The notes beneath the pieces were generated by a model. The model searched no databases. It saw nothing but the letters and a program-made list of their open reading frames with translations, and was not told where the DNA came from. Below, in pieces: positions 16,043 to 24,863 of a DNA stretch of 64,000 nt (positions are counted from its first letter, which is position 1; each line of letters opens with the position of its first letter). A program made the translations under genes and the position numbers. The DNA lies in contig JAGAAX010000016.1 of assembly GCA_017614995.1 (NCBI GenBank), positions 1 through 64,000 of the forward strand, in the 5' to 3' direction. The DNA comes from Spirochaetaceae bacterium. Lineage in GTDB: Bacteria; Spirochaetota; Spirochaetia; Treponematales; Treponemataceae.

Positions 16043-16167
16043 ATACTGAAAATACTAAAACCGCCAGCCAATCGGCAAGGGAAAAATTAACTTTTTTGTG
16101 TTTTTTTTCAATTAAGGGGTTCTTCCATAAATTAATGACAAGTCACCAGATTTGAAATATAATAAGT

Positions 16168-16195
16168 GTTATACGGACGCCCACACTGGGGCGGC
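16168..16195 (+). other. Cassette-joint motif, right half of an attC-like site
   Basis: GTTATACGGACGCCC is followed by a short GCCC/GGGC hairpin ending GGGGCGGC. The same 26-base string, with four changes, follows the complete attC-like palindrome at 23748-23773. In integrons, recombination leaves this GTT... half before each new cassette. Here it precedes the HARE-HTH gene and marks the left end of the accessory island. Confidence 0.5.
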
Positions 16196-16207
16196 TAGGA
16201 GATAAGA

Positions 16208-17164
16208 ATGATTCAATTTTTAGAATTTGCAGAAAAAGTATTAGATAATTCTGAAAAACCATTAATATATCAGGATATATGGAAAAAAGGTGTAGAAATG
16301 GGGTTAGATAAAAGTTTGTCTACTTCCGGTAAAACCCCTTGGCAGACTTTAGGTGCAAGACTATTTTGCGAAGTAAGAGATAATCCAAATTCAAAATTTA
16401 CTAAAGTAGGAAAAAGACCTGCAAAATTCTTCTTAAAAACAAAAATGAATCTTCTTTCTACTGAAGCTATTGAAAATATTGACAAAGAAGAAAATATTCA
16501 AATAAAAAAAGAAAATACTTCATATACAGAAAGACAATTGCATCCATTACTAAGCTATTTTGCATATACAAATACATCTTTCAATAATGGGAAAGCTATT
16601 CTTACAAAAACTATTTTCCATGAAAAATCTAAAAAAGATGGCTTAAATGAATGGATTCATCCAGATATTGTAAGTGTTTATATTCCTATAGAAGATTGGA
16701 ACTCAGAAATAATTGAATTGAATAAAATCATCAATTCAAACTCGATAGAATTATTGTCATTTGAAATGAAGAAAGAAATAAACCGCTCAAATTACAGAGA
16801 GTATTTCTTCCAAGCAGTATCAAATTCTTCTTGGGCAAATGAAGGATACTTAGTTGCTGCTAAAATAACAGATGATGATGAACTAATGAATGAATTAGAA
16901 AGATTATCATCGGCTTTTGGTATAGGTCTTATAAAATTAGATTTAGATGATATAGATTCTTCTACAGTAGTATTTCATTCAAAAAAGAAGAAAGAATTAG
17001 ATTGGGAAACAATGAATAAACTTTGTGAAATAAACTCTGATTTTAAAAAATTTATTCAAGATGTAAAAATAGATTTTGATTCAAAAAGAATTCATAAATC
17101 AGAATATGATGAAATTTTACCAGAACCAGAAAACTATATTAATAAAATAAGGAAAAACATCTAA
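16208..17164 (+). CDS. HARE-HTH domain protein (COG2958-like)
   Basis: 318 residues. Residues 1-78 match the HARE-HTH fold (FLEFAEKVLDNSEKPLIYQDIW, then TPWQTLGARLFCEV and FTKVGKRPAKFFL), a DNA-linked module found in restriction and chromatin proteins. The C-terminal half, from TERQLHPLLSYFAY on, looks like a PD-(D/E)XK-type or DNA-sensing domain seen in COG2958: FEMKKEINRSNYREYFFQAVSNSSWANEGYL carries the ExK-like feature. Function is not established; a role in restriction or defence is plausible. AGGAG lies 7 bases before ATG 16208. Very AT-rich compared with grpE beside it. Its stop codon overlaps the attC-like motif at 17162. Confidence 0.7.
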   Translation: MIQFLEFAEKVLDNSEKPLIYQDIWKKGVEMGLDKSLSTSGKTPWQTLGARLFCEVRDNPNSKFTKVGKRPAKFFLKTKMNLLSTEAIENIDKEENIQIKKENTSYTERQLHPLLSYFAYTNTSFNNGKAILTKTIFHEKSKKDGLNEWIHPDIVSVYIPIEDWNSEIIELNKIINSNSIELLSFEMKKEINRSNYREYFFQAVSNSSWANEGYLVAAKITDDDELMNELERLSSAFGIGLIKLDLDDIDSSTVVFHSKKKKELDWETMNKLCEINSDFKKFIQDVKIDFDSKRIHKSEYDEILPEPENYINKIRKNI

Positions 17165-17220
17165 CATGCACTTAAAATCGGATTTTGCGGTCAAGCCGCA
17201 AAACCGTTTAAGCGCATACA
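17162..17220 (+). other. attC-like palindrome following the HARE-HTH cassette
   Basis: AACATGCACTT (17163-17173) and AAGCGCAT (about 17210-17217) form the outer arms; the inner stem is CGG-TTTTGCGG / CCGCAAAA-CCG with a TCAAG loop and one unpaired A on the left arm. The same structure, almost base for base, is at 23690-23754. The right terminal GTTATG box is missing here (CACATC instead), so this copy looks recombined or decayed. Confidence 0.6.
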
Positions 17221-17260
17221 CATCTATTTTATTCTGTTGAAATAATTGCTAATACAACTA

Positions 17261-17289
17261 TTGACTTCTGCAATATTCAAGGCTATATT
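17261..17289 (+). promoter_or_regulatory. Sigma-70 promoter of the ToxI-like RNA
   Basis: TTGACT (17261-17266), a 17-base spacer, and TATATT (17284-17289). A start site at about 17296 would fall two bases before the first tandem repeat, which is what a type III antitoxin RNA gene needs. Confidence 0.75.
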
Positions 17290-17297
17290 TAAATTAT

Positions 17298-17401
17298 TGG
17301 GAGCTTTCCTGCCCTAAGTGGAAAACTTAAACTGAGTACGTTCCGACTCAAAGCGGAAAACTTAAACTGGGTACGCTCCGACCCAAACTGGAGAACTTAA
17401 C
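17298..17401 (+). ncRNA. Type III antitoxin RNA (ToxI-like), three tandem repeats
   Basis: Three direct repeats abut: 17298-17332 (35 nt), 17333-17367 (35 nt) and 17368-17401 (34 nt). Numbering each unit from its first T, positions 1-5 can pair with 14-18 (TGAGT/ACTCA in unit 2, TGGGT/ACCCA in unit 3: an A-U to G-C compensatory change). Positions 9-13 pair with 22-26 (TTCCG/CGGAA in unit 2, CTCCG/TGGAG in unit 3: U-A to C-G, and G-C to G-U). The stems interleave as an H-type pseudoknot, the fold known for ToxI repeats. Unit 1 keeps the core pairs of both stems. The A-rich linker between units is where the toxin would cut. A terminator follows directly. Confidence 0.88.
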
Positions 17402-17428
17402 GGGCGACTTAAATGTCGCCTTTTTTTA
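17402..17428 (+). terminator. Terminator between antitoxin RNA and toxin gene
   Basis: GGCGAC-TTAAAT-GTCGCC followed by seven T. In type III systems this terminator sets antitoxin RNA in excess over read-through toxin mRNA; the position here is the canonical one. Confidence 0.9.
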
Positions 17429-17480
17429 TATTGTAAGCGATGAATATATCGCTTATCTTTCAAAAATCGAAACTCATGTA

Positions 17481-17924
17481 ATGAAAAACAAGCCAGATGA
17501 ACGAACATATCACAGAAAATATGTCGGTATTATAACTGAAATAAATGGTTTTAAATATTTTGTTCCAATGTCTTCTCCAAAAGCTAAAGATTATGAAAAT
17601 GGTAAAATCCGCAAAAACAATCTTACAACAATTTATATGAGAAGTAAGGAAAAATTATATGGAACACTTCGCTTTAATTCTATGATACCAGTTCCATCTT
17701 CCGAACTTACAGACTATAAAATCAATGATGAAGGTGATTTCAATTACAAAATGCTTATGCTTGCAGAATATAACTTTTGTAAAGACATTCGTGAAAAAAT
17801 AGAAAAGACAGCAAAGAATTTATATGAAAAAAAATGTAATGCAACAGAAGCAGAATTTCCTGTTGGAAAAATTGTAATTGATTTTAAGAAGGTAGAAGAA
17901 GCTTGTAAAACCTTTATGAAGTAA
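17481..17924 (+). CDS. ToxN/AbiQ-family endoribonuclease toxin (type III TA)
   Basis: 147 residues from ATG 17481. Family features: RKYVGIITEINGFKYFVPMSSPK (the SSPK/TSPK active-site region), GTLRFNSMIPVP, and the helical YKMLMLAEYNFCKDIREKIEKTAKNLY. ToxN enzymes cut mRNA and process their own repeat RNA, which inhibits them; several give phage-abortive infection. The same frame is open upstream to the terminator and reads FYIVSDEYIAYLSKIETHV, which matches the conserved first strand and helix of ToxN, but contains no ATG, GTG or TTG. So either an unusual start (ATT at 17430) is used, or the annotated start gives a shortened protein. A 13-codon frame from ATG 17440 ends in TAATG overlapping ATG 17481 and could couple translation. 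Confidence 0.88.
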   Translation: MKNKPDERTYHRKYVGIITEINGFKYFVPMSSPKAKDYENGKIRKNNLTTIYMRSKEKLYGTLRFNSMIPVPSSELTDYKINDEGDFNYKMLMLAEYNFCKDIREKIEKTAKNLYEKKCNATEAEFPVGKIVIDFKKVEEACKTFMK

Positions 17925-17968
17925 TGACTATCATACGCATCAAATCGGGTATCAGTTTTAAAAATAAC

Positions 17969-17998
17969 TTGACTATATAGAAAAATACATATTATTAT
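17969..17998 (+). promoter_or_regulatory. Promoter of the Phd/RelE-type pair
   Basis: TTGACT (17969-17974), then TTATTA at 17992 or TATTAT at 17993, giving a 17- or 18-base spacer. ATTATTATAC around the -10 could be an autoregulatory site; this is inference. Confidence 0.5.
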
Positions 17999-18016
17999 AC
18001 AATGCGAGGTGATGAT

Positions 18017-18289
18017 ATGATGGTAGATACGGCTCAGATTATGCCAATTACTCAATTGCAGAAAACTCTTACTCAGACTGTCAGAAAAATTTCTGAAGAC
18101 AAGCAGCCTGTTTTTATTATGAAAAATAACACAATGGAAGCGGTTATTATGCCATTTGACCGTTATGAAAAACTCGCTGAATTGGAAGAGCTTGAAGAAC
18201 AGAAAGAAATTTATTCAATGGTACAGGAAAGAATGAGTCATTATGATGCTTCAAAAAATGTAAGCTGGTCTTCTTTGAGGAATAAGTAA
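18017..18289 (+). CDS. Phd/YefM-family antitoxin
   Basis: 90 residues from ATG 18017, which has GAGGTG 7 bases upstream; an upstream in-frame ATG at 18002 precedes that site and is less likely. The N-terminal DNA-binding fold (MPITQLQKTLTQTVRKISEDKQPVFIMKNN, then AVIMPFDRYEKLAELEEL) matches Phd/YefM. The C-terminal acidic tail would wrap the toxin. Its stop overlaps the toxin ATG by one base. It neutralises the toxin and represses the operon. Confidence 0.88.
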   Translation: MMVDTAQIMPITQLQKTLTQTVRKISEDKQPVFIMKNNTMEAVIMPFDRYEKLAELEELEEQKEIYSMVQERMSHYDASKNVSWSSLRNK

Positions 18290-18627
18290 TGGCTAAAAAA
18301 TGGGAAGATAAAAAAGATGAATTCGATAAAATTCAGCTTATTCCAGAAGCTGCTGAAGAATACAATAATTTGGACGGCAGTATAAGAGTTGAAGTAGATA
18401 AAAAATTTGAAAAACTTGATAAGAATCCATTTCTCGGCTATCCGTTAGGAAACAAGGCAAATATGGATTTAACAGGCTTTTACAAATTATATGCTTGTGG
18501 AAAAGCAGTCCGTATTGTTTACCGTCTTTTGGCTCCAGAAAAAGTTGAAATCATAGAAGTTTGGGGCATTGGTAAAAGAGAAAACATGGAAGTCTATAAA
18601 GATGTAGACGACAGAAAAAATGGATAA
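18289..18627 (+). CDS. RelE/ParE-superfamily toxin
   Basis: 112 residues. LIPEAAEEYNNLDGSIRVEVDKKFEKLDKNPFLGYPLG, then GFYKLYACGKAVRIVYRLL and VEIIEVWGIGKRENMEVYK, is the RelE fold with the basic and Arg residues used to cut ribosome-bound mRNA. The N-terminus carries about 15 extra charged residues. Paired with 18017-18289. Followed 6 bases later by AACATGCGCTT, the cassette-end motif, so it looks like one mobile cassette. Confidence 0.88.
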   Translation: MAKKWEDKKDEFDKIQLIPEAAEEYNNLDGSIRVEVDKKFEKLDKNPFLGYPLGNKANMDLTGFYKLYACGKAVRIVYRLLAPEKVEIIEVWGIGKRENMEVYKDVDDRKNG

Positions 18628-18719
18628 ACGCCCAACATGCGCTTACGCCCTGCGGTCGTTTGCATTAAGGAAATTATTTAACTCGTCGCTTGCGCAACTT
18701 GCGCATCAAAGCCGATAAA
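18628..18719 (+). other. Degenerate attC-like cassette end
   Basis: CCCAACATGCGCTT (motif at 18634-18644) is followed by TGCGGTCG and a run with GCGCAAC/TTGCGC elements, but no clean right arm. This is the left half of the same site seen at 17163 and 23692. It fills the gap before the convergent TetR gene. Confidence 0.4.
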
Positions 18720-18722
18720 ATC

Positions 18723-19286
18723 TTATTTCAAAATTCCATTTAAGCCGGTAAATGTAATTTTCTCGATAATGTCGGAAAGTTCATTCAAAGGCATTTTGCG
18801 TTCTGCACTGAACCATATTCTGAACGTCTCCACAACGCCAGAAAAAATAAAATCCAGCACAGCAGAAACTTTTTCAGGATTTTTTCCGGGATATTCTTTT
18901 AAAAATTCAGATTCAATTTTTGCTTTTACAACTTTCACAATTTTCGTATTCAGGCTGGAATTTCCTTTCATGCGCAATAGATTTCCGTAATATTCCAGAT
19001 CCTGATTTACAATCAAATCAAGCTGATGAATAACATTGTGAGGATTATCCAAAAAATCATGCATGTGAAGATCCTTAGTTGTCTCTTCAAAAATATCAGC
19101 GAGTTCATCTTCAATATCATCTATTACTTCATATATGCCGGCATAATAAGTGTAAAAAGTTTTTCTATTCACGTCCGCAGCATTTGCAATATCTGTAATA
19201 GTAATTTCATTCAAATCTTTCTGAGAAAGCAGATAAGCGAAAGCCCGCTTTATTGATTTTCTTGTCCTTGCAATTCTTCTGTCCAT
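18723..19286 (-). CDS. TetR-family transcriptional regulator
   Basis: 187 residues. N-terminal HTH (residues 8-55): ARTRKSIKRAFAYLL, then ITITDIANAADVNRKTFYTYY, the classical TetR recognition helix. The C-terminal part is the ligand/dimer domain. Divergent from the MMPL exporter gene, with about 100 bases to its likely ATG; TetR proteins in this position usually repress the pump until its substrate binds. AT-rich like the neighbouring island but no cassette-end motif follows it. Confidence 0.9.
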   Translation of the reverse strand: MDRRIARTRKSIKRAFAYLLSQKDLNEITITDIANAADVNRKTFYTYYAGIYEVIDDIEDELADIFEETTKDLHMHDFLDNPHNVIHQLDLIVNQDLEYYGNLLRMKGNSSLNTKIVKVVKAKIESEFLKEYPGKNPEKVSAVLDFIFSGVVETFRIWFSAERKMPLNELSDIIEKITFTGLNGILK

Positions 19287-19384
19287 AATTTATTTATCCA
19301 CAAATTTTGCAACAAGTGTTACTTTTTATACACTTCTCACTTTTTTTGTTCAACCCTTTTTCGCGTATTATGTATTTTCATAAT

Positions 19385-21481
19385 ATGATAAAGCTTGGAA
19401 AAATTATTGTTAAACAAAAAATCCCGATTCTCATTATTTCCCTTCTGCTGATTATTCCTTCTGTAATCGGCATGGTAAAAACACGCGTGAACTACGACAT
19501 GCTGACTTACCTTCCCGATTCAATGGATACAGTCAAGGGACAGAACATTCTTCTGGATGATTTCGGTAAAGGCGCCTTCTCAATTGTTCTTGTAGAAGGA
19601 ATGGAACCCAAAGAGATTTCTTCTCTAAAAAAACAGATGGAAAAAATCGACCATGTTGATTCTGTCATCTGGTATGATTCTTTTGTTGATATTTCCGTTC
19701 CAATGGAAATTCTGCCTAAAAAGTATTACGACGCTTTCAACCGCGAAAATTCAACTTTAATGGCCGTATTCTTTGACACATCTACAAGCTCTGACGAAAC
19801 AATGATTGCCATAAATGAACTTAAAAAAACTTGCGGCAAAAACTGTTTTGTAACCGGCATGTCGGCTCTTGTTACGGAGCTAAAAGATTTGTGCGAGGCA
19901 GAAGAACCAGTTTATGTTGGAATCGCAGTTGCTCTTGCAATTGTTGCAATGCTTATTTTCATGGATTCTTTCCTTGTGCCTTTTGTTTTCATAACAAGTA
20001 TTGGAATAGCAATTCTATGGAACTTGGGAACGAATATATTTTTTGGCGAAGTGTCTTACATTACTAAGGCTCTAGCTGCTGTACTTCAGCTTGCAGTTAC
20101 AATGGATTATTCAATTTTCCTTTGGAACAGCTATTCAGAACAAAAAATCCGCTTTGACGGAGACAAAAACCGTGCGATGGCTCATGCAATTTCAAACACA
20201 ATCACTTCGGTTGTGGGCAGTTCGATTACAACAATTGCCGGATTTCTTGCATTGTGCTTTATGACTTTCACACTTGGAAAAGACCTTGGACTGGTTATGG
20301 CAAAAGGTGTTGTTCTGGGCGTTATCGGCTGCATTACTGTTCTTCCTGCCCTGATTCTTATTCTGGATAAACCGATTGAGAAAACAAAGCATAAAGCCAT
20401 TCTTCCCAAAATGGACAAAATTGCAGAGTTGATTATAAAAAGCCGCTATATAATTCTTGTAGTCACAGTCCTTATAACTATTCCGGCTTACTACGGATAC
20501 AAAAACACACCGGTCTATTACGATCTTGGAAAGTGTCTTCCTGAATATCTGGATTTTGTGCAAGCCACTAAAAAGCTGAACAATGAATACAGCATGGCAA
20601 ACACTCACATGATTCTTATCGATTCATCTTTAAACCGTAAGGATGTAAAGAAAATGATGAAGGAGTGCGATGCTGTAGACGGCGTAAAAGTCACTCTTGG
20701 AATGTCTGGTGAGATTGGTTCACGTATTCCTGAAAGCATGCTTCCCGAAGAGCTGAAAAAGACCCTGAAAAGCGACAGATATGAACTCGTTCTTGTTACC
20801 TCTGAATATTACACAGCAACTGATGAAGTAAACAAACAAATTGATGACCTCACTTCTATCATCAAAAAATATGACCCGAATGCAATGCTTATTGGTGAAG
20901 CAGCCTGTACAAAAGACATGATTGCAATTACAGACCACGATTTTACCGTTGTAACCTGGCTCAGTATCGGTGCAATCTTTTTGATAATAGCTTTTGTTTT
21001 CACGAGTGCTTCCCTTCCGTTTATTCTTGTTGCAGTTATCGAACTTGCAATTTTTATAAACCTGGGGCTTCCGTATTACACTGGAACAGAACTTGCCTTC
21101 ATCGGTCCAATCTGCTTAAGCACAATTCAGTTGGGAGCAACCGTTGATTATGCAATTCTTATGACAACACGTTACCTGAAAGAACGCCGTAAAGGAATTG
21201 AAAAACGGGAGTCTGTTACAACTGCACTGAAAACTTCCATGCCTTCAATTATCGTAAGTGCCGCAGGTTTCTTCGCAGCCACTTTCGGAGTCGGTATTTA
21301 TTCCAACATAGATATTATCAGCACTATGTGTAACCTCATGGCCCGTGGAGCAGCAATCAGTATGTTCGCAGTAATTCTTGTTATGCCTACACTGCTTATG
21401 CTTCTGGACAAAATTATTATTCACACAACCAGCATGAAGAAAATAGAAACCAAAAAAGAGATTAGTAAGGAGAATAACTAG
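19385..21481 (+). CDS. MMPL/RND-superfamily exporter
   Basis: 698 residues from ATG 19385 (MIKLGKIIVKQKIP); the frame is open to 19307, but the extra 26 residues are low-complexity and overlap the promoter. Two repeats of one large extracytoplasmic loop and a bundle of membrane helices, with about 12 segments in all. The RND-type VTMDYSIFLWNSY and the second-half ATVDYAILMTTRYLKERR carry the conserved Asp-Tyr proton-relay pairs. Likely exports a lipid or drug using the proton gradient. Followed after 2 bases by the secreted partner at 21484. Confidence 0.9.
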   Translation: MIKLGKIIVKQKIPILIISLLLIIPSVIGMVKTRVNYDMLTYLPDSMDTVKGQNILLDDFGKGAFSIVLVEGMEPKEISSLKKQMEKIDHVDSVIWYDSFVDISVPMEILPKKYYDAFNRENSTLMAVFFDTSTSSDETMIAINELKKTCGKNCFVTGMSALVTELKDLCEAEEPVYVGIAVALAIVAMLIFMDSFLVPFVFITSIGIAILWNLGTNIFFGEVSYITKALAAVLQLAVTMDYSIFLWNSYSEQKIRFDGDKNRAMAHAISNTITSVVGSSITTIAGFLALCFMTFTLGKDLGLVMAKGVVLGVIGCITVLPALILILDKPIEKTKHKAILPKMDKIAELIIKSRYIILVVTVLITIPAYYGYKNTPVYYDLGKCLPEYLDFVQATKKLNNEYSMANTHMILIDSSLNRKDVKKMMKECDAVDGVKVTLGMSGEIGSRIPESMLPEELKKTLKSDRYELVLVTSEYYTATDEVNKQIDDLTSIIKKYDPNAMLIGEAACTKDMIAITDHDFTVVTWLSIGAIFLIIAFVFTSASLPFILVAVIELAIFINLGLPYYTGTELAFIGPICLSTIQLGATVDYAILMTTRYLKERRKGIEKRESVTTALKTSMPSIIVSAAGFFAATFGVGIYSNIDIISTMCNLMARGAAISMFAVILVMPTLLMLLDKIIIHTTSMKKIETKKEISKENN

Positions 21482-21483
21482 AT

Positions 21484-22950
21484 ATGAAAATCAGAAATCA
21501 AAAACTTTTATTTCTAATCGTATTAACCGCAATTGTTTCTAAAACCTTGTGGGCATTGCCTGCTCAAAAAGCAGTCAACAAGGAAGAAAATGTTTATGTC
21601 CTTTCTGACACAGAAGGAAATGTAAATAAAATAATTGTCAGTGCCTGGCTTAAAAACCCGGAAAAGAAAAAGGAACTTACAGATATTTCAGATTTGAAAG
21701 ATATTACCAACGTAAAAGGTGATGAAACTTTTAAAGAAAGAGACGGAAAGAAAATCTGGGCTGCAAACGGAAATGATATTTTCTATCAGGGAACAACAGA
21801 TAAAGAAGTTCCTGTTTCTATAAGTATCAGTTACAAACTTAACGGAAAAAAAATCTCCTCACAGGATTTGGCTGGAAAAAACGGAAAGGTTACAATCCGA
21901 TTTGACTATAAACCGAATGTTTATGAAACTGTTGTTGTAGACGGAAAAAAATGCAAAATCACTCCTGCATTTTTAGTTATGAGCGGCGTACTTCTGGACA
22001 ATGAAAATTTCCGCAATATTAAGGTAAACACTGGAAAAATCATTAACGACGGAAACCGCTCAATTGTAATCGGAGTTGCACTTCCGGGTATGCAGGAAAA
22101 TCTGGGATTAAGCAAAAAAGATTTTGATATTCCGTCTTTTGTAGAAATCACTGCTGATGCAGCAGATTTTTCACTTATCACAATGATGTCTCTGGCTTCA
22201 AATGATGCAATCAGTTCACTGAACCTGGATCAGTTAAACTCAAGCAATGACCTTTCAAATATGATTTCAAGCCTGACAGAAAAACTGAACGAAGGAATAG
22301 ACGAACTCTATGACGGTGTAAATCAGCTTAACCAGGGAATGGGACAACTGAGTTCAGGTCTTTCACTGCTTTCTAAAAACAGTCCTGCTCTTACATACGG
22401 TGCAATGCAAGTGTTCCAGGCTCTCTTTGATACAGCAGAAAAAACTTTCGAACAGAATCACATAAAAATAGAAAAACTTACAGTTGAAAATTATCATCAG
22501 GTGCTGGAACCTGTAGCTGAAAAATTGATTTTGAAAAAAGACAAAAAACAAGTACTGGATCTGATTGAAAGTCTGGACAAGTATAAAAAATTCTATGACG
22601 GAATTGTGGCTTACACCAACGGAGTAAATCAATGCTATGAAGGCAGCATTCTTCTTGCTGAAGGAACTGACCAACTCTACACTGCGGTTACAGCCGTAAA
22701 ACATGGAAGCACTGAACTTGCCAAGGGAATTGCAAATTTTCAGGATGATTCTTTAAGTATTCTAAACGGAATGCAGGGCTTTGACATAGAAATACTAAAA
22801 AAACTTGCGAATGCAGTTTCAAAAAGCGAAACCGTTCTTTCCCATCTGAAAGCAACAGTAGACGTAACACAAAAGTACCAGAGCTTTACAGGAATCAGCC
22901 CTGAAATGAACGGAAGCGTCCGCTTTATTTACAGGACAAGCTCTATATAA
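21484..22950 (+). CDS. Secreted accessory protein of the MMPL exporter
   Basis: 488 residues with a signal peptide (residues 1-25, cleavage near LWA-LPA). N-terminal half is beta-rich (SISYKLNGKKISSQDLAGKNGKVTIRFDY). A helical middle with repeated GxxQLxxGxxQL heptads (ELYDGVNQLNQGMGQLSSGLSLL, then LYTAVTAVKHGSTELAKG) matches the YhgE/Pip-type repeats often encoded next to MMPL pumps. No catalytic motif seen. It probably forms a periplasmic coiled-coil part of the exporter. Same operon as 19385-21481. Confidence 0.7.
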   Translation: MKIRNQKLLFLIVLTAIVSKTLWALPAQKAVNKEENVYVLSDTEGNVNKIIVSAWLKNPEKKKELTDISDLKDITNVKGDETFKERDGKKIWAANGNDIFYQGTTDKEVPVSISISYKLNGKKISSQDLAGKNGKVTIRFDYKPNVYETVVVDGKKCKITPAFLVMSGVLLDNENFRNIKVNTGKIINDGNRSIVIGVALPGMQENLGLSKKDFDIPSFVEITADAADFSLITMMSLASNDAISSLNLDQLNSSNDLSNMISSLTEKLNEGIDELYDGVNQLNQGMGQLSSGLSLLSKNSPALTYGAMQVFQALFDTAEKTFEQNHIKIEKLTVENYHQVLEPVAEKLILKKDKKQVLDLIESLDKYKKFYDGIVAYTNGVNQCYEGSILLAEGTDQLYTAVTAVKHGSTELAKGIANFQDDSLSILNGMQGFDIEILKKLANAVSKSETVLSHLKATVDVTQKYQSFTGISPEMNGSVRFIYRTSSI

Positions 22951-23057
22951 AGACGCTCAATTCCGGCATGGTGCACATCCGTCATGCACTTATATATCAG
23001 AACAGCCTGTGCCCAACCGGAATGTGGCTTTCAGTTGTAAATAATACAATTATCCGT

Positions 23058-23086
23058 TTGACATATACACGCTGCACAGATATAAT
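23058..23086 (+). promoter_or_regulatory. Consensus promoter of higBA
   Basis: TTGACA (23058-23063), 17-base spacer, TATAAT (23081-23086): both boxes match the sigma-70 consensus. The expected start site lies at about 23093, on the A of the HigB ATG, so the toxin mRNA would be leaderless. Confidence 0.85.
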
Positions 23087-23092
23087 AAAACA

Positions 23093-23374
23093 ATGATAAA
23101 GAGTTTTGCGGATAAAGAAACAGAACTTATCTATAATCAGAAATTTTCAAAGCGGCTTCCGAATACAATTCAGAAAGTAGCTTTGCGAAAATTGATGATG
23201 ATAGATAATGCAAAGTGTCTGGAAGATTTAAGAGTTCCACCAAGCAATCATCTAGAGCAGCTTTCCGGAAACAGAAAAGGTCAGCATTCAATCCGCATAA
23301 ATGATCAGTGGCGTGTCTGTTTTACAGAAAAAGACGGACATTATTATAATGTAGAAATTGTGGATTACCACTAG
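23093..23374 (+). CDS. higB: HigB-type mRNA interferase toxin
   Basis: 93 residues of the RelE/HigB (plasmid maintenance killer) family: MIKSFADKETELIYN at the start, LRVPPSNHLEQLSGNRKGQHSIRINDQWRVCF, and the final VEIVDYH. The full set of family residues is there. HigB cuts mRNA on the ribosome. Toxin precedes antitoxin, as is normal for higBA. Likely leaderless. Confidence 0.94.
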   Translation: MIKSFADKETELIYNQKFSKRLPNTIQKVALRKLMMIDNAKCLEDLRVPPSNHLEQLSGNRKGQHSIRINDQWRVCFTEKDGHYYNVEIVDYH

Positions 23375-23383
23375 GAGTAAACC

Positions 23384-23680
23384 ATGTCTGATTTTATCGA
23401 AACACCAACAATTGGAGAAATCCTCAGCGAAGAATTCCTTATTCCTCTTGGAATTTCTGCATATAAACTGGCACAGGCGATAAATGTTCCAACTTCACGC
23501 ATTCAGGATATTCTTCATAACCGCAGAAAAATTACTGTAGATACATCTTTAAGACTTGCAAAGTTTTTCGGATTATCTGACGGATATTTTATGTCTTTGC
23601 AGGACGATATTGATATAAGAAATGCAAAGATAGAACTTGCACCACAGTTAGAAGAAATTAAAGCTTATGTGTATGCATAA
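23384..23680 (+). CDS. higA: HigA-type XRE antitoxin
   Basis: 98 residues. HTH: IGEILSEEFLIPLGISAYKLAQAINVPTSRIQDILHNRRKITVDTSLRLAKFFG, the HigA/VapI type, then GYFMSLQDDIDIRNAK. It binds HigB and represses the operon. GGAG lies 7 bases before its ATG; 9 bases from higB. A complete attC-like palindrome follows 10 bases after its stop. Confidence 0.94.
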   Translation: MSDFIETPTIGEILSEEFLIPLGISAYKLAQAINVPTSRIQDILHNRRKITVDTSLRLAKFFGLSDGYFMSLQDDIDIRNAKIELAPQLEEIKAYVYA

Positions 23681-23689
23681 AAAATTGCT

Positions 23690-23773
23690 ATAACATGCGC
23701 TTCAAATCGGATTTTGCGGTCAAGCCGCAAAACCGTTTAAGCGCGTAGTTATGTGGACGCCCTCATTGGGGCG
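23690..23773 (+). other. Complete attC-like site plus cassette joint
   Basis: Left arm ATAACATGCGCTT (23690-23702), inner stem GGATTTTGCGG/CCGCAAAACC (23709-23733), right arm AAGCGCGTAGTTATGT (23739-23754). The left and right ends pair as inverted complements with an extra base on one side, the hallmark of folded integron attC sites. GTTATGTGGACGCCC (23748 on) repeats the joint at 16168. No integrase gene is in the window. Confidence 0.65.
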
Positions 23774-23810
23774 CAATGTATTAGAATTAAAATGTTTTAA
23801 GAGATAAAAA

Positions 23811-24173
23811 ATGACAAAAATTAGAACAATCATAATTTCTATAGCTTCGTTCTTTGTTTTCATTGCTTCTATCTTTGCTTTTTTTCTCTGGTGGCATATT
23901 GGAGGCGGTTATATAAAATATGCTGAAAAAACAGCAATGCCATTAATAGTAAAAATAGAAAACTACAAAGAAATTAATGGAAAAACTCCTGATTCATTTG
24001 TTGATTTGGGGTTTACCCCTGATGATTTCTGGGGTGGCATGAGAACAGAGAGAAAGGGCATTGCTTATTGGTATGAAAAAATCTCAGACACAGAGTATCT
24101 TGTTTATTTTGACTTATCCGTTGGAGAATCTTTATATTATCATTCTTATACGAAAGAATGGGATATTAATTAA
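23811..24173 (+). CDS. Small membrane-anchored hypothetical protein
   Basis: 120 residues. One N-terminal membrane segment (residues 8-30, ISIASFFVFIASIFAFFLWW), then a short extracytoplasmic domain with MPLIVKIENYKEINGKTPDSFVDLGF, a pattern like the pilin-like or general-secretion G-type domains that follow a single helix. No known function. Stands alone as a cassette between the attC-like site and MazEF. AAGAGATAAAAA before the ATG is a weak ribosome binding site. Confidence 0.6.
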   Translation: MTKIRTIIISIASFFVFIASIFAFFLWWHIGGGYIKYAEKTAMPLIVKIENYKEINGKTPDSFVDLGFTPDDFWGGMRTERKGIAYWYEKISDTEYLVYFDLSVGESLYYHSYTKEWDIN

Positions 24174-24194
24174 TCCAAAAAACTACACTTTTGC

Positions 24195-24222
24195 TTGACA
24201 GTAAGAATATACAATGTATACA
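24195..24222 (+). promoter_or_regulatory. Promoter of mazEF
   Basis: TTGACA (24195-24200) and TATACA (24217-24222), 16-base spacer. AATATACAATGTATACAC overlaps the -10 and has a TATACA..TGTATA inverted repeat, a natural site for MazE autoregulation. Confidence 0.6.
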
Positions 24223-24244
24223 CTTTGAATATTGGAGGTTCAAT

Positions 24245-24478
24245 ATGCAGGCAGTAGTTCAGAAATGGGGCAACAGCCTCGCTTTTAGAATTCCTTCCCT
24301 TTGGGCAAAAGATAACAACGTAAAAAACGGAAGCAAAATAGAAGTAATCGCAGAAAAAGGAAAAATAACCATTCTTCCGCAGAAAAAGACCCTTGATGAT
24401 ATGCTTGAAATGGTTACTCCAGAAAATATTCATTCGGAAATCTCAACAGGTCATTCGGTAGGTAATGAAGAATGGTAA
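24245..24478 (+). CDS. mazE: MazE-type antitoxin (AbrB/SpoVT fold)
   Basis: 77 residues from ATG 24245, with GGAGG 8 bases upstream; an in-frame ATG at 24191 would place 18 residues over the promoter and is rejected. MQAVVQKWGNSLAFRIPSLWA, then GSKIEVIAEKGKITI, is the swapped-hairpin AbrB DNA-binding domain. The tail (LDDMLEMVTPENIHSEI) is the MazF-binding part. Overlaps mazF by 7 bases. Confidence 0.95.
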   Translation: MQAVVQKWGNSLAFRIPSLWAKDNNVKNGSKIEVIAEKGKITILPQKKTLDDMLEMVTPENIHSEISTGHSVGNEEW

Positions 24479-24810
24479 ACTCAAATTATATCCCCGAAAA
24501 AGGTGATTTAGTCTGGCTTGATTTTGACCCGCAAACCGGTCATGAACAAAAAGGCCGCCGCCCGGCAATTTGTGTTTCCCAGAAGAAATATAATCAAAAA
24601 ATTGGTCTTGCCTTATTCTGCCCTATTACCAGTCATGTAAAAGGCTATCCGTTTGAAATTGTATTGGATAAACATTCGATAAATGGATGTATTCTTAGTG
24701 ACCAAATAAAAAATCTCGACTGGAAACAAAGAAACTGTGATTTTATAGAAAAAGCAACAGATGAAGAAATTGATTCTGTTGTTGAGAATATAAAACTGTT
24801 AATAGAATAA
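24472..24810 (+). CDS. mazF: MazF-type endoribonuclease toxin
   Basis: 112 residues. YIPEKGDLVWLDFDPQTGHEQKGRRPAICVS, then FCPITSHVKGYPFEI and GCILSDQIKNLDW, are the PemK/MazF motifs, with catalytic Arg in KGRRPA and Thr/Ser in PITS. It cuts single-stranded mRNA at short sites. Coupled to mazE by overlap ATGGTAA. Cassette-end motif AACATGCACTT follows at 24817. Confidence 0.95.
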   Translation: MVNSNYIPEKGDLVWLDFDPQTGHEQKGRRPAICVSQKKYNQKIGLALFCPITSHVKGYPFEIVLDKHSINGCILSDQIKNLDWKQRNCDFIEKATDEEIDSVVENIKLLIE

Positions 24811-24811
24811 T

Positions 24812-24828
24812 CACATAACATGCACTTG
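24812..24828 (+). other. Cassette-end motif after mazF
   Basis: CACATAACATGCACTTG; the core AACATGCACTT is at 24817-24827. Only the left half of an attC-like site remains, ending in the ribosome binding site of the next gene (TAGGAGG at 24851). It suggests deletion of the right half. Confidence 0.4.
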
Positions 24829-24863
24829 TGCTCTACATTCGTTTGCATATAGGAGGTAAAAAT

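Follow-up and report, generated by a model that had tools for sequence, protein, structure and literature searches.

The toxin gene of a type III toxin–antitoxin locus in the window (the whole stretch of 64,000 nucleotides that was analysed) has no standard start codon ahead of its conserved coding sequence. This start-lost ToxIN allele very probably arose recently, through loss of the DNA between two short T-rich direct repeats, and we are similarly confident that the loss of the toxN start reflects an ordinary deletion and gene breakage, not a new mode of translation initiation. The locus is a member of the ToxIN/AbiQ family in a rumen-type Treponema. The toxin frame (17421–17921) was identified as ToxN by its match to Pfam PF13958 (E-value of 5.7e-39, 134 bits, the cut-off being 25), and PADLOC called it as AbiQ (E-value of 1.3e-39). 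The features of the locus are as follows.

17261–17289, forward strand: toxI promoter, sigma-70-like, with a −35 element TTGACT, a 17-nt spacer and a −10 element TATATT.
17306–17399, forward strand: toxI antitoxin array found with a repeat finder, comprising 35-nt units at 17306–17340 and 17341–17375 and a shorter third unit at 17376–17399.
17402–17427, forward strand: intrinsic (Rho-independent) terminator at the toxI/toxN boundary, GGGCGAC TTAAAT GTCGCCT then a T-run, from a terminator scan and RNA folding.
17422–17427, forward strand: junction of the 36-nt deletion, lying in the T-run with five equivalent placements, from alignment with the closest relative (L004) and others.
17421–17924, forward strand: remaining, start-lost toxN frame, running from FFYIVSDEYI... 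to the stop codon TAA at 17922–17924.
17440–17481, forward strand: 13-codon frame with a TAATG overlap with the ATG at 17481; its own ATG lies inside a predicted hairpin (RNA folding).
17481–17483, forward strand: first remaining in-frame ATG; a product started here would lack the first strand and helix of ToxN.

Upstream of the toxin, the locus is well preserved. The promoter matches at 10 of 12 positions in a consensus scan, and its TTGAC and TATATT elements are invariant across seven aligned sequences. The 35-nt toxI units are 83% alike, the array is near-invariant in an alignment of relatives, and long matches to it in another genus are 91–99% identical. The known ToxIN/AbiQ systems (Pectobacterium atrosepticum, 2xd0; Bacillus thuringiensis, 4ato; and AbiQ, 4glk) share a layout of a sigma-70-like promoter, toxI repeats, a Rho-independent terminator and a ToxN-family frame. 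The window presents the same elements, namely a ToxN/AbiQ toxin, tandem RNA antitoxin repeats upstream of it, a promoter, and a terminator between antitoxin and toxin, and the catalytic residues of its toxN are conserved by alignment. In contrast to the family, its toxin has neither a start codon nor a ribosome-binding site, the N-terminal initiation region being deleted. A start codon and toxin frame after the terminator are part of the definition of a type III locus (criterion iv; PMC8860590), and because no ATG, GTG or TTG is present in the toxin frame before 17481, we file the locus as a start-lost relic and not as a complete member of the family. An Rfam search of 17100–18000 gave no match up to an E-value of 1.

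The preliminary description had reported a toxin frame that stays open back through the terminator with no standard start, and we found this to be correct, with the frame open from 17331, after an upstream TAA at 17328. Across the end of the terminator it reads ...FFYIVSDEYIAYLSKIETHV, where FF occupies 17421–17426 and the codons at 17427–17480 encode YIVSDEYIAYLSKIETHV. Two details required amendment: ATT 17430 is not the sole near-start codon, as the frame also holds CTG (17367 and 17388), ACG (17373 and 17400) and ATC (17448 and 17466), and a start at ATG 17481 would cost 25 residues compared with intact relatives, not about 20.

Where the start should lie is evident from the relatives, nineteen of which came from public genomes and more from 274 genomes of the family. 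All close full-length relatives (82–95% amino acid identity) have an ATG between the terminator and the frame, seven codons before a conserved tyrosine (the same tyrosine in L004–L011 and L024–L035), and every intact close relative carries this ATG in a piece of DNA that is absent from the window. Distant full-length homologues (49–60% identity) start with ATG, TTG or GTG. A GGAG-type Shine–Dalgarno sequence precedes the ATG in most of the relatives and is weak in L006, with energies of −5.5 to −9.3 kcal/mol in seven of the eight intact relatives measured and −2.9 kcal/mol in L006.

The closest relative is the intact Treponema toxIN locus L004 (JAEELR010000059.1, genome G108, from another genus of the family), with a toxin 95% identical in amino acid sequence and an array and promoter 99% identical to those of the window; L004 keeps the 36-nt piece, whereas the window does not. 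The two sequences are identical through the array, the terminator stem and six T's, after which exactly 36 nt are absent from the window and the same frame resumes, with 51 of 55 matches to L004. In L004 the layout is GTCGCC-TTTTTTAT-TTTTGGGGACAGA-ATG-GCAGAAGATAATG-TTTTTTAT-ATTG, with TTTTTTAT at both ends of the piece, while at the junction in the window it is GTCGCC-TTTTTTTAT-ATTG. The absent piece holds GGGGA and ATG in L004, and with it toxN lost its Shine–Dalgarno sequence, start ATG and opening codons. That the piece is missing is an observation; replication slippage between the short direct repeats would have removed this initiation region, leaving the toxI promoter, array and terminator untouched. 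Transcripts reading through the terminator would then no longer be productively translated, and the toxin would fall silent while toxI RNA would still be made. The loss of toxN would be tolerated by the cell because the antitoxin was not lost, and further decay may have had too little time to appear.

Substitutions in the rest of toxN speak to the timing. Between the window and L004, dN is about 0.02 and dS about 0.44 (NG86). L005 and eight other sequences served to polarise the changes, which number 4 nonsynonymous and 13 synonymous on the window branch, and 5 and 17 on the L004 branch; of the nonsynonymous changes in the window, A53, I121 and T162 were scored by script, and K164M was read from the alignment, outside the scripted range. 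At a neutral nonsynonymous to synonymous opportunity of about 3.5, about 46 nonsynonymous changes would be expected on the window branch in the absence of constraint. A fully unconstrained branch is rejected (P(≤4) = 3e-15), and the unconstrained share of the branch is at most about 13% at the 5% level. Of the 166 bases in 17261–17426, all but 2 (17283 and 17291) match L004, with no difference in the toxI repeats or after 17291. The toxin body shows no decay, and the toxI antitoxin is likewise preserved. The preliminary description had offered an unusual start, or a start-lost and decaying gene; start loss stands, with the ATG of the relatives lying in the missing 36 nt, and decay does not, the body being as constrained as that of its intact sister. 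The unrelaxed body implies a recent deletion or, with lower probability, continued translation of the body, since a gene that is still translated would likewise keep its body intact and under strong constraint.

Judged from its sequence features, the window toxin is probably silent, because there is no Shine–Dalgarno sequence at the candidate starts and the product of ATG 17481 is without fold-stabilising residues. The Shine–Dalgarno energy is 0 at ATT 17430, ATG 17440 and ATG 17481, and no in-frame candidate tested has such a sequence; the out-of-frame ATG 17413 has a weak one (−2.9). In a product that begins at ATG 17481, the positions that align with the catalytic residues Lys33 (here Arg), Thr52, Ser53 and Lys55 would be retained, and the counterparts of Phe3, Tyr10, Ile11 and Leu14, which in ToxN are conserved and stabilise the fold (PMC8860590), would be missing.

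We consider it improbable that transcripts reading through the terminator still yield a little toxin by initiation at ATT 17430 or another non-standard codon close to it. The frame is open, the body is constrained like that of the intact sister, and the deleted length is divisible by three, which leaves the frame upstream of the toxin open as well, but a Shine–Dalgarno sequence is lacking, the T-run and terminator stem lie directly upstream, and a recent deletion accounts for the constraint equally well. Such a start is used by no relative, and the unusual start suggested in the preliminary description thus gained no positive support from the relatives or from the candidates tested. That the deletion tuned the toxin down and did not kill it, with very low translation from a non-AUG codon in the terminator T-run, is similarly improbable.

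There is also little reason to expect that ribosomes, perhaps reinitiating once they have read the 13-codon frame, start at ATG 17481 and make a shortened ToxN that has kept some activity or binds ToxI. The 13-codon frame opens at ATG 17440 and stops in TAATG on ATG 17481, as had been described, and the catalytic residues and RNA contacts of PMC8860590 fall downstream of Met 17481 in the alignment with 2xd0. (AlphaFold gave a mean pLDDT of 33.6 for L004 ToxN without an alignment, and the published structures were used for residue mapping.) However, the shortened protein would be without the four fold-stabilising residues named above, neither ATG has a Shine–Dalgarno sequence, and ATG 17440 sits in the predicted hairpin. 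The 13-codon frame and its TAATG are also found in the intact L004 and are absent from L005, so we take them to be an incidental by-product of the coding sequence.

An assembly or sequencing error, with the genome really carrying the 36-nt piece, is very unlikely. The window does come from one genome in 64 contigs that is 95% complete, but the 36 nt are lost cleanly at an 8-bp repeat, which is neither a homopolymer error nor a typical assembler collapse, the stretch shared at the junction (about 8 bp) is far below assembler k-mers, and a similar deletion occurs elsewhere, in L048. A mixed population, in which some members carry the piece, is a formal alternative to start loss by deletion, with a single assembly examined. 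Correction of a base in the T-run, the error that the preliminary description had in mind, cannot account for the absent 36-nt piece, and the ATG that lies in the terminator loop (17413) is one frame off the toxin; the intact L004 and L005 have this ATG too and do not start there.

Toxin loss with the RNA antitoxin kept is a recurrent path here. In L048 (G095:C16; L048:1501–1960, minus strand), an independent deletion of 96 nt, again a multiple of three, has removed the ATG and N-terminus, and 486 of the 488 bases that follow are identical to the intact L044. As in the window, promoter, array and terminator are kept; unlike the window, L048 belongs to a more distant toxIN lineage and retains its ribosome-binding region. 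Broken or truncated toxins, several of them beside arrays, are present at L012, L013, L047, L049, L050, L051, L070, L071 and L075. Loss of the toxin with the antitoxin kept is expected for such systems, and the reverse order is expected to harm the cell. The window, together with the independent L048, provides a clean example of how a type III system dies, with the toxin initiation region going first and the RNA antitoxin staying; in the literature searched we found nothing specific on toxin-dead type III loci.

Other remnants were also seen. The Treponema berlinense lineage (L012:3001, L013:3001 and L051) carries a remnant of toxN that is broken internally and lacks a start. Two toxI arrays stand without any toxN: at L063:1501–1646 (minus strand, G155) all three units and the terminator are present, and at L083:743–853 the array is partial, with a promoter that looks intact. 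The latter is in G108, which has an intact toxIN as well.

Sequence comparison indicates that the toxIN locus is horizontally acquired. The toxI arrays of the window and of G108, a genome from another genus, share 99% identity, compared with 73% for dnaK. In G001, a sister species, only about 90 bp separate the sequences that correspond to the flanks at 16112 and 24848, which places toxIN in an insert of about 8.7 kb (16113–24847) that G001 lacks. An attC model, built from the genome's own integron and relatives (L008 and L031 included, L004 left out), matches the window at 23688–23754 (E-value of 8e-9) and weakly at 17164–17219 (E-value of 0.13). Cassette leaders, GGACGCCCNCACTGGGGCG, occur at 16175–16193 and 23755–23773, and also in the genome's own integron on contig C28, where its integron integrase is found (420 bits). 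In L004 (3500–3565), L008 (3500–3565) and L031 (1433–1495, minus strand), an attC site directly follows toxN, a few bases past the stop codon. With attC in this position in several Treponema genomes, type III toxin–antitoxin loci appear to move as integron gene cassettes, a subject on which the literature searched held nothing specific. A search of viral contigs with the junction DNA and the toxin gave no match.

The genome has two further toxN-like genes, L002 (G000:C29:143396–143860) and L003 (G000:C10:2068–2547), at 34% and 32% identity; in both, an ATG follows a stretch that resembles a terminator. Directly after toxN in the window, at 18002–18627, a Phd/YefM-type antitoxin gene (PF02604) precedes a 112-residue gene with no Pfam match, and this pair is probably a type II toxin–antitoxin system.
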